Below, one piece after another: positions 56,195-64,000 of a stretch of 64,000 bases of DNA; the first letter of the stretch is position 1; every line of letters starts with the position of its first letter. The position numbers were made by a program, and so were the translations under genes. The DNA lies in NCBI GenBank assembly GCA_027623295.1, contig JAQBXR010000008.1:1-64000 (forward strand). Reading direction: 5' to 3'. The notes under the pieces were generated by a model that was not told the DNA's origin, did no database searches, and was given only the letters and a program-made list of their open reading frames with translations. Source of the DNA: Planctomycetota bacterium. Lineage in GTDB: Bacteria > Planctomycetota > UBA1135.

Positions 56195-56271
56195 GGGGGC
56201 CTATGGGTGTCATTTCTATCGACACAATCGAATCCCACCCTTTAACCGCAATTTTCACCCTAAAAACGCAG

Positions 56272-56277
56272 GATAAT
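56272..56277 (+). promoter_or_regulatory. -10 hexamer (GATAAT) of the selenoprotein gene
   Basis: It has six bases to ATG 56284. Together with the lipoprotein signal this fixes the start at 56284 rather than an upstream GTG. Confidence 0.4.
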
Positions 56278-56283
56278 GGAGCC

Positions 56284-56766
56284 ATGCGAAAAGTATTTTC
56301 TTTGCTTATCACCCTGGGCCTAGTCGCTGCGCTTTGGTGCAGCCTCTTTTCCTGCACTAGCCTCCAAGGGGAGATGGCACCCCCATTGATGGGTGGAACG
56401 CAAGTCACCGATGGCCTCATTTTGGCCGATTCAGAAACGCCTCAAACCGAATGGCGACTACTCGCCTTTTTCAGCCCCACCTGAAGCCCTTGCGTGGCCG
56501 AAGTGCCGCATCTCGTGAAGATGCAAAAAGAGTTTGGTGGAGAAGATTTTTCCGTAGTTGGACTCATGCAGGGAAACGCTCAAGCAGCCAGCCAGTTCTC
56601 CCTTGCTCAGAAACTGAACTATCCGATCTTCGCCAACAGCAAAGACTTCGACGCCTACGATGTCATGTTCTTGCCGGTCACCTACCTGGTGGACCCCTCT
56701 GGCATGATTGTGGCCGATGACCTTGACGATGCTGAAAAAATTCTCGCGCAACGCTCCGTCCGATGA
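56284..56766 (+). CDS. Selenocysteine-containing TlpA/thioredoxin-like lipoprotein (UxxC)
   Basis: From ATG 56284 the frame stays open for 160 residues apart from one TGA at 56482-56484, codon 67. Around it the protein reads RLLAFFSPT-U-SPC-VAEVPHL, exactly where TlpA/ResA proteins have WCxxC followed by (A/E)E(M/V)P. Cys70 is retained, so this is a UxxC redox motif. The cis-proline LPVTYLVDPSG follows as expected. A lipobox (SLFSC, Cys24) places it outside the cytoplasmic membrane. Homology continues without frame change on both sides of the TGA, which argues for selenocysteine rather than a nonsense mutation. The stop overlaps the next gene by 4 bp. Confidence 0.85.
56491..56510 (+). promoter_or_regulatory. 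Candidate bacterial SECIS stem-loop after UGA67
   Basis: TGC (56491-56493), bulge GT, GGC (56496-56498), loop CGAAGT, GCC (56505-56507), GCA (56508-56510) form a 3+3 bp stem with a bulge. The apical loop begins 15 bases after the UGA and has G at its second position. This is close to the usual bacterial SECIS geometry, though slightly short. It was folded by eye. Confidence 0.5.
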
Positions 56767-58574
56767 ATAGCTGCACTCCACTTCTGCTGCTTAGCGCTTT
56801 GCTTTTTGCAAATGGAACCGATGCTGTTGCACAAAACTCCACCGAAAAGATTCGTGAAACACCAAGCACACTTGCGCAGAGTGTTGGGTCAGGAGTGGAG
56901 TGGAGGACTGATTTATCAACCGCCATTGAGGATGCAAAAAAATCTAAGAAGCCCATCTTCTGGTATGTGCATACCTTGGAAGGCAGCTTCATGGATCGAC
57001 AGCCAGAGGTGGACCGCTACATGATGGGTGGTCCTTTTAGTTGGCCCGCCATGGTCCAGTTATTGAACGAAGATTACATCCCGTTGCGTTTAGCGGCAGA
57101 CCGTAAGTTGTGCAAAAAATATGACCTTGCACCCGTACAGTTCATTGAACCTGGGATTCTAGTTTTGAGCTCTAGCGGAAAGGAACAATCACGCTTGGAT
57201 CGCATTACCACCATGCACCCTGGATGGTTTCAAACGCAGTTCAATCTCCATTTAGGGGAGGTTTCTAATTTTCCTGGAAGCTTGGGAGAGGAGCGGTGCC
57301 TTCAGTTTTACCAAGAGATTCCAGCTTCGGAAACTTCTCAAGAATCATTCTCTAAGGCGCTTGCCGAACTCGATTCAACCCATCAAGCGGAAGCCACTTG
57401 GCTATACGCCGCGGGCTTGCATGACTTGCGCAAGGAGCTTGCCGCACAGGAAGTCCTGAAGGGCATGCTGAATCAATTCCAACATCACCCGCTTGCTGCA
57501 AAAGCCGCACTTGAACTGGAAGGGCAAGGACCGTACTGGAGAGGGTTCGAATCTTACGATGCCATCCCATTGGAGGCACTTGCGGCAAACAATTCGGGAA
57601 CGCTTGCACCTGCTGGCGCCTTCAGCGTGAAGGGTGTGGAAGAACGCTCCGTTGCGTTTTTGGCACGCACGCAGTCAGAAGACGGTGCCTGGCGCGACAG
57701 CATCTATGACTTTGGCGGCACTGACAGCATGCCCAATGTCTACGCTGCCGTCACTGCAATCAATGCACGGGCTCTAGTGGGGAAGGCCAACGCAAGCGAA
57801 ACCCTGAACCGCGCACTGAAGTACTTGGCATCGGATGACATCTTGAATCTAGAGGATCAGGACGAGCTTATCTGGGCTTACCTCTACCGAATTCGTTTGT
57901 ACTGCGCCATCCTCGAGCAAAAGGGTCCACCCGCCGAGGGCATCGACAAGCTGCTCAAGCACAACGTGAGTGGGCTGGTTGCCATGCAGGCCAAAAACGG
58001 ATCTTGGTCCCACGAATATCAAAATCCTTTTGTGACTGCATCGTGCCTAATCGCTCTATTCGACGCTTCTGGGAACCGTGCAGATCCGGAGAATTTGGAG
58101 GGCATCGTTAAGAGTGCACTAATTCCACTGGAGAATTCGCGCTCCAAAAAAGGTGCTTATAGCTACAACCTTGGCAACAGTAGCTCCCCTCTTGCGGGCA
58201 GTGTAGGTCGGACTCCGGTTGGTGAGCTTGCGCGATACTTCTGGGGTGTGTCCAATAAGAAGGACCTTTCGAATGCGGTCAGCAATAGTTTTCGCGAGCA
58301 AGAGCCACTGTTCCTTGCACGCAAATATGACGACCACACCGACATGCATGCCTACGGCGGCTTCTTCTTTTGGTACTCCATGCTCGGACGCACCGAGGCG
58401 ATTGTGGAATTGCCGAAAGGAAAACAGCGCGAGCAAGCCATCGCGCAACAACAAGAACTCATTCTTGCCTTGCCCGAGATCGATGGAGTCTTCATTGACT
58501 CGCATGAACTCGGGCGTAGTTACGGCACCGGTATGGCGTTGTGGTGCTTAGACTTACTCGCTGAGAAAGACTAG
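56763..58574 (+). CDS. Secreted protein: thioredoxin-like head plus alpha/alpha-toroid repeats
   Basis: This 603-residue protein has a signal peptide (cleavage near VAQ, about 24). A thioredoxin-like N-terminal region (about 45-160; EDAKKSKKPIFWYVHTLEG) lacks a CxxC. The C-terminal region (about 280-600) has repeats such as VAFLARTQSEDGAW, VAMQAKNGSWSHEYQNPFVTA and YSYNLGNSS, resembling terpene-cyclase/prenyltransferase toroids. The catalytic DxDD of squalene cyclases is absent. It is translationally coupled to the UxxC selenoprotein, so the pair may act together in the periplasm. Confidence 0.65.
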   Translation: MNSCTPLLLLSALLFANGTDAVAQNSTEKIRETPSTLAQSVGSGVEWRTDLSTAIEDAKKSKKPIFWYVHTLEGSFMDRQPEVDRYMMGGPFSWPAMVQLLNEDYIPLRLAADRKLCKKYDLAPVQFIEPGILVLSSSGKEQSRLDRITTMHPGWFQTQFNLHLGEVSNFPGSLGEERCLQFYQEIPASETSQESFSKALAELDSTHQAEATWLYAAGLHDLRKELAAQEVLKGMLNQFQHHPLAAKAALELEGQGPYWRGFESYDAIPLEALAANNSGTLAPAGAFSVKGVEERSVAFLARTQSEDGAWRDSIYDFGGTDSMPNVYAAVTAINARALVGKANASETLNRALKYLASDDILNLEDQDELIWAYLYRIRLYCAILEQKGPPAEGIDKLLKHNVSGLVAMQAKNGSWSHEYQNPFVTASCLIALFDASGNRADPENLEGIVKSALIPLENSRSKKGAYSYNLGNSSSPLAGSVGRTPVGELARYFWGVSNKKDLSNAVSNSFREQEPLFLARKYDDHTDMHAYGGFFFWYSMLGRTEAIVELPKGKQREQAIAQQQELILALPEIDGVFIDSHELGRSYGTGMALWCLDLLAEKD

Positions 58575-58577
58575 CGA

Positions 58578-59210
58578 CTAACTGTCGTCAACTTCACCGG
58601 TGAGGGTGTGATTGCCAAAGCGATCCATAGAGACGAACTCTTCGAAGTCCAACAAACCCATCCGTGGACGAGCAGCAGTCAACGCTTTGCCCAAGGTAAT
58701 CATCAGTAAGGGTGGGTGATCTTCTGGTAAGCCAACGATTTCTGCGACTTTCACCGGATCAAACCCAATCATAGGGCAAGTGTCGTATCCCATGTCCTTT
58801 GCCAACAGCATCATGGTCATGCCGGCCAGACCAATCGTGCGCGCGGCTTCATCGCGCTGAATGGCGCCGTTCGAGTAAAAACCCGGAATCATGCCGCCGA
58901 ACATTTCTTTCACTGCGTCGGAAGCTTTACGCAGAGTGCGGTCTATGTTGGTGTGGCCATTTAGATTGCCCGCGCAAATAATCGTGGCTGAAGCGTCTTT
59001 CACCTGCGCTTGATTCCACGCTGCTGCGCACAACTCATCTTGCACTGCCTGATCGGTCACCACTACAAAATGCCAGTTCTGCATATTGAAAGAGGTTGGG
59101 GTTAGAGCGACATGAGCCATTAGATGGCGAATCTCGTCTTCACTCAGGCGATGTTCGGAATCGTAAGCCTTTACAGACCGACGTTGACGGAGGGCATCGA
59201 GCAATTCCAT
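58578..59210 (-). CDS. Nitroreductase-family FMN oxidoreductase
   Basis: This 210-residue protein begins LLDALRQRRSVKAYDSEHRL with the FMN-binding RRSV(R/K) motif. It continues TPTSFNMQNWHFVVV (FMN-phosphate and ring contacts) and GYDTCPMIGFDP, the nitroreductase core. It is likely an NAD(P)H-dependent flavoenzyme acting on nitro compounds or quinones. A TAATAT hexamer (59217-59222) ends six bases before the ATG, inside the stop of the adjacent SDR relic. Confidence 0.88.
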   Translation of the reverse strand: MELLDALRQRRSVKAYDSEHRLSEDEIRHLMAHVALTPTSFNMQNWHFVVVTDQAVQDELCAAAWNQAQVKDASATIICAGNLNGHTNIDRTLRKASDAVKEMFGGMIPGFYSNGAIQRDEAARTIGLAGMTMMLLAKDMGYDTCPMIGFDPVKVAEIVGLPEDHPPLLMITLGKALTAARPRMGLLDFEEFVSMDRFGNHTLTGEVDDS

Positions 59211-59216
59211 GGCGGC

Positions 59217-59222
59217 ATATTA
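59217..59222 (-). promoter_or_regulatory. -10 hexamer (TAATAT) of the nitroreductase gene
   Basis: It has six-base spacing to ATG 59210, consistent with a leaderless message. It overlaps the TAA stop of the SDR stub, so the promoter sits at the end of a dead gene. Confidence 0.4.
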
Positions 59223-59435
59223 GCGTTCCCGCTTATGCCACTTCTGCAGCACTTCCGCCTCTTTCTCGGCCTTCAAGCTGCCACCAAGCGCCTTCGGATG
59301 ATCTTCCCAATCAAAGGTGTCACGAATGGTTTCGCCAGAGGGGCGATAAACCAAACCTGCAGCTACTGCTTTTTCAGAGTTGGAAGTGCTGTTTGGATAA
59401 GCCTCGGGAATCCACAGCGGCATTTCTATCCAGCA
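59220..59435 (-). pseudogene. C-terminal stub of an NAD-dependent epimerase/reductase (SDR)
   Basis: On the minus strand the frame reads EMPLWIPEAYP, AVAAGLVYRPSGETIRDTFD and EAEVLQKWHKRER, then TAA. This matches the last about 70 residues of extended SDR proteins (lPlWiPe.., aaGl.fRP..eTv.dTl.w, E.e.L..W). The N-terminal Rossmann domain and start are absent. The homology stops at about 59435, where the plus-strand relic begins. Confidence 0.65.
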
Positions 59436-59436
59436 A

Positions 59437-59637
59437 AAATACAAATCCAAGTCCTTTCTCGATACTTTCGTCTATCGTGGCGGCGACAGCGCCGTATCTT
59501 GGATGTACGACGGGTTCTCGCAGCTCCTAAGTGGTGGTGGACTTTCACTCGTTGTTGTCACCCTTCGCCGCACTTTGGACTGGTTCCGCACTCCGCCTCG
59601 GGCGTATGCACCAGAAACTCGAAACCCCCCAACCTGA
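59437..59637 (+). pseudogene. C-terminal stub of an NTP/NDP-exchange (ADP/ATP carrier-like) transporter
   Basis: Frame 1 reads KYKSKSFLDTFVYRGGDSAV, SWMYDGF, then a hydrophobic helix (LSLVVVTLRRTLDW) and TGA at 59635-59637. The KYKaKsfiDTfvyRGGD string is a hallmark near the C-terminus of nucleotide-exchange transporters. All N-terminal helices are missing. It lies head to head with the SDR stub, so one deletion probably removed both N-termini and the promoter region between them. Confidence 0.6.
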
Positions 59638-59655
59638 CTCTGACTCGAACTCTGA

Positions 59656-60216
59656 ATGAAAAAAATCGCACTCATCGCTGCCTGTGCAGCACCTCTTTTC
59701 GGCTCCTGCGTGGTAGCCGTCGGCAATGGCACCCACGCCAATGATTGGACGTACGACCTTGAGGTCGAGAAGGCCGTTTGCGTGATTCGCGGCACCGAGG
59801 GCAACGAAAATGTCACCGGCACGGTCACTTTCACCGAGCATAAAGACGGCGTTTTCATTGAAGCGCGCATTACCGGTCTCGCGCCGGGCGCACATGGCTT
59901 CCACATCCATGAGTTCGGTGACCTCTCGACCACCGATGGCAAGTCGGCTGGCGGGCACTACAACCCAGAAGGCCATGACCACAGCGGCCCTTCTTCCACG
60001 AAGCGCCACGAAGGCGATCTAGGCAACATTGTGGCCGATGCTAATGGGGTAGCTGAGTACTCGCGTTACGACGACGACCTCAATCTCGTCGGCAAGCACT
60101 CCATCCTCGGACGTGGTGTGATCATTCACGCCGGCGAAGATGACCAGCGCAGTCAGCCTACCGGTAATGCCGGCGCTCGCGTCGGTTATGGCGTGATTGG
60201 AATCGCTCAGCAGTAA
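59656..60216 (+). CDS. sodC: Cu/Zn superoxide dismutase lipoprotein
   Basis: This 186-residue protein has a lipobox (LFGSC, Cys17). Metal ligands are in GFHIHEFGD (two Cu His), GGHYNPEGHDHSG (bridging and Zn His) and HEGDLGNI (Zn Asp). The active-site arginine is in TGNAGARVGYGVIG. Both cysteines of the usual intramolecular disulfide are missing: no Cys after FGD, and the final RxxCGVIG reads RVGYGVIG. It removes periplasmic superoxide. No -10 hexamer at leaderless spacing was seen. Confidence 0.93.
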   Translation: MKKIALIAACAAPLFGSCVVAVGNGTHANDWTYDLEVEKAVCVIRGTEGNENVTGTVTFTEHKDGVFIEARITGLAPGAHGFHIHEFGDLSTTDGKSAGGHYNPEGHDHSGPSSTKRHEGDLGNIVADANGVAEYSRYDDDLNLVGKHSILGRGVIIHAGEDDQRSQPTGNAGARVGYGVIGIAQQ

Positions 60217-61657: not shown

Positions 61658-62668
61658 CTAGAGCTTTTCCAATTGCACATCACGGGCACCCTCAAAGAAG
61701 GCCTTCCAGCGATTTCCAAGCCAGGCCGTGGCTGGAACTTGCTCCAACTGTGAGCCTTTGAGTTCGCCAGCAAGGCACGTGCCGGTCATGCGAGACCACA
61801 GGCTGCCGGTCTCGAAATCGCGCATGAGAGGTTTGGCTCCTTCGGTTTCTGGATCGGCGGCAAGAGCCGCAAAGTGGAGTTGACGCTCTCCAATCTGACT
61901 ACGAAAAGCCACCGCATAGACCGCATCTTGATCAAAGCAAACCACGAGCGGGGCATCGAGCAAAGTGGTGTCCAAAACCGGCAACCGACTGAGCAAGGAA
62001 TAGCGGAACAGGGTGACGTTGCGCCCCTCCCCAACCGAAAGCCCGAAACTGGAAATCCGGTCCTTCAAGGTGAAGGTTCCCATCATGCCGCTCACCTTCT
62101 CGCCGAGCAGTACGCCGGTGTCAGGGTGGCGCTTTTTCCAAGTCTTGTACGGCATGATCTCGGAAGGAATGAAGCCAAGCTTTTTACCTTTCAGCTCCCC
62201 CTTCAGGGCTTCGCCCGTCACATGCAACCATTTCGAATTGGTCTGCTTGTCATACATCATAAAGGAGTTACGGTAGAGCACGCCCTCGTGCCCGAAGTTC
62301 AAAACCTGTCCATCTAGAGTGCGGCCATACACGATGGCCGTTTGGCAAAGCGGTCACCAACTCACCGCGACAGGAATTTCGCCGCAGGTGTCGTTGACTA
62401 ACTCCACACCGCCCATGACCGAAATCGGATAGGCGCGCGCTTCCCCACCTAAGAAGAGGCCGATGACCGGTTCCTCGGGATCGATCTCGAGGCCAGTTTC
62501 CAGAACCGTGGCCATGGGTGGATGATGCAAGACGGGAAACTGATCTGGCGCCATGACCTGACGCATTCCCTTGTCATAGTTGGCTTCACTGAACACATCT
62601 TCCGTCTGCGCGGAAAGTCCAGTAACGCTTGCCGCGGTAATAAAAAGAATGGTGGCGATGGAGCGCAT
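61658..62668 (-). CDS. Selenocysteine-containing DUF3179 periplasmic protein (UxxC)
   Basis: This 336-residue protein starts at ATG 62668 (signal peptide MRSIATILFITAASVTGLSA). One in-frame TGA occurs at 62356-62354, codon 105, within GEIPVAVSW-U-PLC-QTAIVYGR. DUF3179 proteins have VtYCPLC at this point. The first cysteine is replaced by UGA and Cys108 is kept. Before the UGA are EARAYPISVMGGVELVND, and after it YRNSFMMYDKQTNSKWLHV and LLGEKVSGMM, all DUF3179 segments in the same frame. The function of DUF3179 is not established; the UxxC site suggests redox or metal chemistry. A TATGAT hexamer ends 7 bases before the ATG. Confidence 0.88.
62322..62340 (-). promoter_or_regulatory. Candidate bacterial SECIS hairpin after UGA105
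   Basis: On the minus strand CGGCCAT (62340-62334), loop CGTGT and ATGGCCG (62328-62322) form a perfect 7-bp stem. The apical loop starts 21 bases after the UGA and has G at its second position. Distance and loop fit the known bacterial SECIS model. Confidence 0.65.
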
Positions 62669-62675
62669 GTGTCCC

Positions 62676-62681
62676 ATCATA
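62676..62681 (-). promoter_or_regulatory. -10 hexamer (TATGAT) of the DUF3179 selenoprotein gene
   Basis: It ends seven bases before the ATG at 62668. It overlaps two upstream in-frame ATGs, which supports the downstream start. Confidence 0.4.
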
Positions 62682-62737: not shown

Positions 62738-63166
62738 CTAATGCTCTTGTGCGGGGTACAGCACGCGATAAAGCGTACGCACCTGCTTTGGGTCCAAAGT
62801 GTTACGCACCTGCAGCAAAGTTTCGATGTTGTTATCGACTTCCTTATTCCGCAGCTCGCACAGCTTGGCCGCCAATGCCTTTACCTGCTTTTCGTCCATG
62901 ACTTCGGCGGAAAGGGCAATCCGCAACTCATCGCTCACGGTCTGAGTATCGCGACGTAACTCATCTGCAGCATCACAGCATGCTATGCCGCAGCGATTCA
63001 GCACCCCGATTTGTGCAGGGCTGAGGTCCAGGTCTGCGTATTGCGCCGGCGGATCAACCTTGACCTGGGTCGATGCCTGGGTCGGCTTTTGGTACTGCAC
63101 AACATTCAAAGCAAGGCTCGCGAGGAATGCGCCTCCCATAAAAACGATCAGATACTTCCTAACCAT
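62738..63166 (-). CDS. CpxP/ZraP-like periplasmic sensor with a CxxxCC motif
   Basis: ATG 63166 overlaps the stop of the previous gene as TAATG and gives 142 residues with an N-terminal membrane anchor (YLIVFMGGAFLASLALNVV). The helical body has LDLSPAQIGVLNRC, CGIACCDAADELRRD and TLDPKQVRTLYRVLYP. This is the LxPxQ two-helix layout of heavy-metal-resistance/Spy-type proteins. The cysteine cluster CGIACC suggests metal or thiol sensing. It is the third gene of a sigma/anti-sigma operon, as in metal-responsive ECF systems. Confidence 0.7.
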   Translation of the reverse strand: MVRKYLIVFMGGAFLASLALNVVQYQKPTQASTQVKVDPPAQYADLDLSPAQIGVLNRCGIACCDAADELRRDTQTVSDELRIALSAEVMDEKQVKALAAKLCELRNKEVDNNIETLLQVRNTLDPKQVRTLYRVLYPAQEH

Positions 63167-63594
63167 TAGTTCGCCTCGTTGTTGGAGATGTAAGTCGCCA
63201 AAGTCACTTCCGGCCAAGGAGTGCTGTTCTGCAAGCCATCGACGTAGGCTGCTGGGTCATGCACCAAAGGCACTTCCTGACGCAGATGATCCACCAGATG
63301 CAAACCGCCCGCTGCGAGACTAGTTTTCACGGTACCGCCCGCGGTGCGAGTGACCGCTTGCTCTAGGCCGAAGAACACTAAGAAGCCAAGCATGCCTGCT
63401 GCGGCAAAGCGCAAACGGCTTTGGAAGCGTGAAACCCCTCCAAGAATTGGCGCCCCAGACTCATCCTGGGAGACCGTGAATTGAAACCTCAAAATTGCAG
63501 CTTCTTCAATGCGCTGCCACAGCCCTTCTGGGGCAGTCGGCGCATGCAGAACTTGACGCTCTTTTGAGTTGAGAATTTGGTCTTTAGGTTTCAT
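63166..63594 (-). CDS. Putative membrane anti-sigma factor
   Basis: This 142-residue protein has a cytoplasmic N-terminal half (ILNSKERQVLHAPTAPEGLW), one membrane segment (about 64-82, LRFAAAGMLGFLVFFGLE) and a periplasmic tail. There is no zinc-binding HxxxCxxC motif of ZAS anti-sigma factors. The call rests on its place directly after the ECF sigma gene (4-bp overlap) and its single-pass topology. The sequence itself is not recognisable. Confidence 0.55.
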   Translation of the reverse strand: MKPKDQILNSKERQVLHAPTAPEGLWQRIEEAAILRFQFTVSQDESGAPILGGVSRFQSRLRFAAAGMLGFLVFFGLEQAVTRTAGGTVKTSLAAGGLHLVDHLRQEVPLVHDPAAYVDGLQNSTPWPEVTLATYISNNEAN

Positions 63595-64000
63595 TCGTTC
63601 ATCACTCCTAAATCAATGGCGGAGCCTGAGGCAAGTTGGCGAAACTTATCTCGTGCGCGAGAAAGGCGAGACATGACGGTGCCTTGAGGGAGGTCAAGGA
63701 TTTCACTGATCTCGCGGTAGCTGAAATCTTCCACTTCGCGGAGGAGGAAAATCGTGCGTGCCTCTTCGGGCATGCGTTTGAGGACATCTTGCACCAAAGC
63801 GACGGTTTCCTGCTGCTGCAGGCGTCCGCTGCCGTCGACCATAGAAGTTGGAGCAGCCTGCGGAAGCGCATCCAGCGAAGTCGCGGACTTGCGCTTGCGG
63901 CTCTTCAGTTGGTTCAGGCAAAGGTTCACGGTAAGGCGATGAATCCAGGTGGATACCTGACTCCGCCCAGCGAAGGTTCCGGCTTTGGCAAAAACGCGCA
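63591..64000 (-). CDS. ECF-family RNA polymerase sigma factor, C-terminal part
   Basis: The gene enters from the right edge. In frame from 63998 it reads VFAKAGTFAGRSQVSTWIHR, then LTVNLCLNQLKSRKRK (regions 2.3-2.4). A linker follows, then region 4 with MPEEARTIFLLREVEDFSYR and a helix-turn-helix LPQGTVMSRLSRARDK. It would direct transcription of its own operon and others in response to a periplasmic signal relayed by the next two genes. The start lies outside the window. Confidence 0.92.
   Translation of the reverse strand, partial: RVFAKAGTFAGRSQVSTWIHRLTVNLCLNQLKSRKRKSATSLDALPQAAPTSMVDGSGRLQQQETVALVQDVLKRMPEEARTIFLLREVEDFSYREISEILDLPQGTVMSRLSRARDKFRQLASGSAIDLGVMNE

Follow-up and report, generated by a model that had tools for sequence, protein, structure and literature searches.

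The minus-strand gene at 61658–62680 almost certainly encodes a DUF3179 selenoprotein, in which an in-frame UGA would specify selenocysteine (Sec) as the first residue of a UPLC motif. This reading rests on computed evidence of three kinds: conservation of the in-frame UGA, a complete set of Sec machinery genes in the same genome, and a covarying SECIS hairpin. The window, by which we mean the whole 64,000-nucleotide stretch analysed (G000:C16:1–64000), comes from a 2.45 Mb assembly that is 88% complete. The gene and its parts are as follows.

61658–62680, minus strand: predicted DUF3179 selenoprotein gene; 340 codons from ATG 62680, 336 from ATG 62668; stop codon TAG
62354–62356, minus strand: UGA predicted to be read as selenocysteine; U109 from ATG 62680, U105 from ATG 62668; position 1 of UPLC
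62090–62566, minus strand: first DUF3179 repeat, with the UPLC motif; profile match; pLDDT 94.6 when modelled alone
61661–62089, minus strand: degenerate second repeat, lacking the Sec/Cys residue; 40% identical over 42 residues

On the minus strand between 61658 and 62680, the TGA at 62354–62356 is the sole internal stop, and it sits where the CPLC motif of the DUF3179 family has its first cysteine. A first-pass annotation of this DNA had read CPLC as UPLC with the TGA as codon 105, which is correct when counting from ATG 62668, and had placed both halves of the protein in one frame with family signatures. The read-through product bears this out: it matches DUF3179 (PF11376) at 190.6 bits (E 5e-56), above the gathering score of 27 and hence a member of the family, with signal both N- and C-terminal of the UGA. 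A scan of the whole genome with the DUF3179 profile returned two matches, both within this frame. The N-terminal segment, judged by eye, looks like a signal peptide, which points to an exported protein. An AlphaFold2 model of the protein (61661–62680) is β-rich with two repeats (pLDDT 91.1, pTM 0.87). PDB searches gave nothing meaningful by sequence and no significant match by fold; a Rieske fold was considered and rejected (E ~0.1–0.2 or worse; target-normalised TM ~0.5, up to 0.59; Cys/His ligands not conserved, by eye). In a viral library, the model matched an uncharacterised Indivirus (giant virus) protein, A0A1V0SD44 (E 6e-9, TM 0.40/0.56); this suggests that a giant virus encodes a DUF3179-like protein, and the match carries no functional information.

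Ten genomes of the same taxonomic family, the window's own among them, carry DUF3179 with an in-frame TGA, and together they represent seven genera; a genome was included when its match contained one in-frame TGA or when, on reading, a TGA stood at the DUF3179 motif codon. The position of the UGA codon is identical at the sites read in the family, the class and the phylum. When homologues were aligned at the CPLC site, a check proposed in the first-pass annotation, the UGA fell on their cysteine, and this column held only Sec or Cys in all 27 of 27 aligned proteins. Other letters at the site in the phylum-wide reading appear to come mostly from these proteins' degenerate second repeat. Variation around the Sec residue was also seen: 11 DUF3179 selenoprotein loci have a UxxA motif, with no second cysteine, and the second cysteine is absent from UPLA and UPLT relatives. 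One same-family genome (G011) carries an additional, diverged DUF3179 copy with USVC, and in another the DUF3179-Sec copy (L062, G004:C27) has an apparent frameshift shortly past the UGA, reflecting either a pseudogene or an assembly error.

A hairpin follows the UGA of the window's gene.

62322–62340, minus strand: candidate bacterial SECIS hairpin; 7-bp stem CGGCCAU/AUGGCCG, loop CGUGU

The perfect 7-bp stem, the loop (CGTGT in DNA), the 13-base gap between UGA and stem, and a loop beginning at base 21, that is, after 20 nt from the UGA, had all been described in the first-pass annotation, and each is exact. Its assignment to bacterial SECIS geometry likewise stands. The bSECIS constraints quoted in PMC13188914 cover loop, stem, spacing and energy (below -7.5), and the 5-nt loop (G second, U third), 7-bp stem, 20-nt spacing and folding energy (-11.0 kcal/mol) of this hairpin agree with all four; the window's hairpin shows no difference from the consensus as quoted there, whereas in two subgroups of relatives, UVIC/UVVC and UPLC-D/N, the loop lies 1–2 nt further on. 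Taken alone, the hairpin stands out only mildly (z -2.7 for the bare 25 nt, -2.1 for 35 nt and ~0 for a 56-nt stretch), and its energy did not differ significantly from that of synonymous recodings (z -0.26). Across relatives, Sec and Cys sets differed only modestly in the same recoding comparison (mean z -1.17 versus -0.38; Mann–Whitney p 0.0005). Chance is excluded by conservation and covariation in relatives rather than by the single hairpin. A scan of the window for UGA-plus-hairpin combinations returned the DUF3179 site as the sole convincing one, missing a second selenoprotein gene (below) in which the hairpin is farther from the UGA. A covariance model of the SECIS element, run against the window's own genome, found the DUF3179 site at E 2.8e-12 and its next match at 0.03; in this search for further selenoproteins, the weaker matches had no plausible flanking gene.

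Covariation was assessed after in-frame sites were placed in a gap-free alignment of the hairpin region. In the class set (n=21 UGA sequences), 93.2% of stem positions are paired, with two-sided changes at 6 of the 7 pairs. In the phylum set (n=51 UGA rows), which omits 13 sequences whose loop register differs, a row containing unread bases and two odd rows (L150, L183), pairing reaches 95.0% and two-sided, compensatory changes occur at 7 of 7 pairs. The covariation score of the phylum set was 0.585, against 0.182 (sd 0.020) for shuffled alignments and at most 0.114 for slid versions, and 0 of 500 shuffles did as well. The 33 Cys homologues gave no clear signal: 51.9% paired, with a score of 0.194 versus 0.156 (sd 0.026), matched by 42 of 500 shuffles. 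The encoded residues vary together with the stem (e.g. AIVYG, GVVYS, GMVYA), and since the amino acids change with it, protein conservation does not explain the pairing. Hairpin covariation, another check put forward at first pass, is therefore strong among UGA-containing relatives and without clear signal among Cys homologues. The hairpin and the UGA are both conserved in relatives, the opposite of one refuting outcome that the first-pass annotation had named.

The genome encodes the full Sec machinery, whose absence the first-pass annotation had named as the other refuting outcome: SelA (472 bits), SelB (640 aa, 310 bits once its pieces are joined, bearing a SelB-wing_3 winged-helix domain), SelD (303 bits) and tRNA-Sec (71 bits, anticodon tca). 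The SelD gene (L103, 198–1370 of G000:C24) has an in-frame UGA of its own, at codon 16, and is immediately followed by the tRNA-Sec gene. Among same-family genomes, tRNA-Sec scored above the cut-off in 23 of 26 and SelA in 22 of 26. Two fragmented assemblies contain the UGA gene though one (G013) has no tRNA-Sec above the cut-off and the other (G014) was negative in the SelA search. Planctomycetes with Sec machinery have been described previously (PMC4807772).

Directly upstream of the DUF3179 gene lie three further genes on the same strand.

62738–63217, minus strand: LTXXQ/Metal_resist-like small protein; directly upstream, a conserved neighbour
63166–63594, minus strand: 142-aa protein with one hydrophobic segment, in the position of an anti-sigma factor; no Pfam match
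63591–64000, minus strand: ECF sigma factor, 191 aa; runs past the window end, to ~64166 on contig C16

The sigma factor, one-TM protein, Metal_resist-like and DUF3179-Sec genes overlap or are closely spaced, and the same gene order is found in G003, G004 and G005 and in a genome of another genus, G019 (loci L061, L062, L063 and L067). Adjacent ECF sigma factors (PF04542/PF08281) were identified in the window's own genome and three relatives. The small protein next to the DUF3179 gene scores 29.0 bits for Metal_resist in the own genome (cut-off 29.2) and 34.7 in one relative, and is above the cut-off for LTXXQ in both. The 142-aa protein gave no profile match; its single hydrophobic segment and conserved position make it a candidate anti-sigma factor. 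This arrangement resembles CnrYXH of Cupriavidus metallidurans, in which an ECF sigma factor, a small one-TM protein and a Metal_resist/LTXXQ-like protein also adjoin. It differs from that system in that the middle protein here has no Pfam match, the sensor is putative, no efflux pump follows, and a selenoprotein gene lies downstream. On the other side of the DUF3179 gene are a YCF48-like gene, a Cu/Zn superoxide dismutase (SOD) and a nitroreductase, and in G003 that side likewise holds a Cu/Zn SOD gene as well as a similar neighbour; the nitroreductase and Cu/Zn SOD genes (58578–60216 of the window) are close to both of its selenoprotein genes.

Turning to mechanism, SelB carrying Sec-tRNA-Sec would bind the hairpin just past UGA-109, as code, machinery and covariation together suggest, and the ribosome would then place selenocysteine at UPLC position 1 rather than terminating. 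A literature search found no paper on DUF3179 function. Because no residue but Sec or Cys occurs in the column and the motif resembles CxxC, the Sec and the cysteine three residues on most likely act as the catalytic selenol/thiol pair in a redox enzyme of the periplasm; redox catalysis is, on balance, probable, with a periplasmic thiol/selenol enzyme as our best guess. Exchange of the CxxC type is not a possible mechanism in all members, since UPLA and UPLT proteins have no second cysteine and would need either a mono-selenol mechanism or an external thiol. Co-transcription with the ECF sigma, anti-sigma-like and Metal_resist/LTXXQ-like genes is probable in the window's genus and in one other genus of the family. 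Gene order further hints that the selenoprotein may be produced in response to envelope metal or redox stress, a form of control that we regard as doubtful but worth entertaining. Speculatively, DUF3179-Sec might be the stress-induced periplasmic effector selenoenzyme of a CnrYXH-like ECF system, in which UxxA and UxxT forms act by a single selenol without a resolving cysteine.

The Sec protein could instead bind a metal or another ligand, for example in copper or mercury capture, and perform no redox catalysis. The Metal_resist/LTXXQ-like neighbour, the CnrYXH-like gene order, the UPLA and UPLT relatives with no second cysteine and the weak Rieske-like fold resemblance would all accord with such a role. 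We nevertheless consider it unlikely: the Cys/His cluster ligands of Rieske proteins are not conserved in the alignment, as judged by eye, known selenoproteins mostly use Sec for catalysis, and the nearby Cu/Zn SOD and nitroreductase fit oxidative stress equally well.

Two alternatives to the selenoprotein reading itself concern the codon. A CPLC gene might have gained the TGA through nonsense mutation, or through a base error, as would fit a metagenome-type assembly and a frame that is intact apart from this one stop. Sites read across the phylum, however, comprise 67 distinct UGA (against 33 Cys), all at the exact codon; among the matches listed from a 392-genome draw of the phylum, a hand count gave ~62 with one TGA, 2 with TAG only and none with TAA; and the downstream frames remain open and conserved, with a covarying hairpin. 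In a tree of 99 domains, built with the Sec column masked, Sec/Cys labels change ~6 times (bootstrap 5–7) versus a mean of 28 for shuffled labels, and the clade that holds the window's protein, 23 rows drawn from several families, is all Sec; by this phylogeny, the Sec is an old trait passed down by descent rather than the product of a recent mutation. Conservation thus excludes a pseudogene or sequencing error for practical purposes, in line with the first-pass view that a chance nonsense mutation was unlikely. Decoding of the UGA as another residue (e.g. Trp or Cys), whether a near-cognate tRNA, a suppressor tRNA or a changed code were responsible, would be compatible with a frame that is open under codes such as table 4, but is equally far-fetched given that the alternative in the column is always Cys and never Trp, that UGA serves as an ordinary terminator (e.g. 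at the end of the 56203–56775 gene and in several relatives), and that tRNA-Sec and a covarying SECIS are present.

The selenoprotein reading of the DUF3179 gene had also been argued at first pass from a second UxxC selenoprotein within 6 kb. That gene is real and the argument correct, although it is not needed.

56203–56775, plus strand: second predicted selenoprotein, TlpA/ResA-like thioredoxin-fold protein with UxxC; UGA at 56482–56484

Its UGA is kept in many relatives within the family, and a recurrent sequence downstream of it, e.g. CATCTCGTGCAGATG, could be a candidate SECIS. Elsewhere in the own genome, a thioredoxin-like match (L104, G000:C17:15961–16215, minus strand) contains one in-frame TGA, and its relatives have TWUGPC. 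The taxonomic family seems rich in thioredoxin-like selenoproteins.

DUF3179 as a selenoprotein family is not new. A selenoprotein of this family was reportedly first described by Zhang and Gladyshev in 2007, from an Olavius algarvensis symbiont. The protein studied here shares with the listed DUF3179 selenoprotein the same Pfam family (PF11376) and the same UxxC with Sec in the first position; it differs in its host lineage, here Planctomycetota, and in having relatives with UxxA as well. DUF3179 (UxxC/T) appears in the lists of bacterial selenoprotein families in PMC9312934 and PMC13188914; the entries for it there give UxxC/T and not UxxA, and their accounts of DUF3179 selenoproteins make no mention of the ECF-sigma gene order. 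What looks new is how broadly the Sec form occurs and is inherited across Planctomycetota, along with the UxxA variants and an ECF gene order upstream, and the confident two-repeat β-rich model also adds to what is known of DUF3179.

Automatic annotation that takes UGA as a stop splits genes of this kind, and with a single in-frame TGA in ~62 of the matches listed, mis-annotation of the DUF3179 family is probably widespread in the phylum. The SECIS alignment obtained from DUF3179 relatives is clean and transferable. Given an invariant Sec/Cys position and the gene order, the function of this uncharacterised domain becomes testable.
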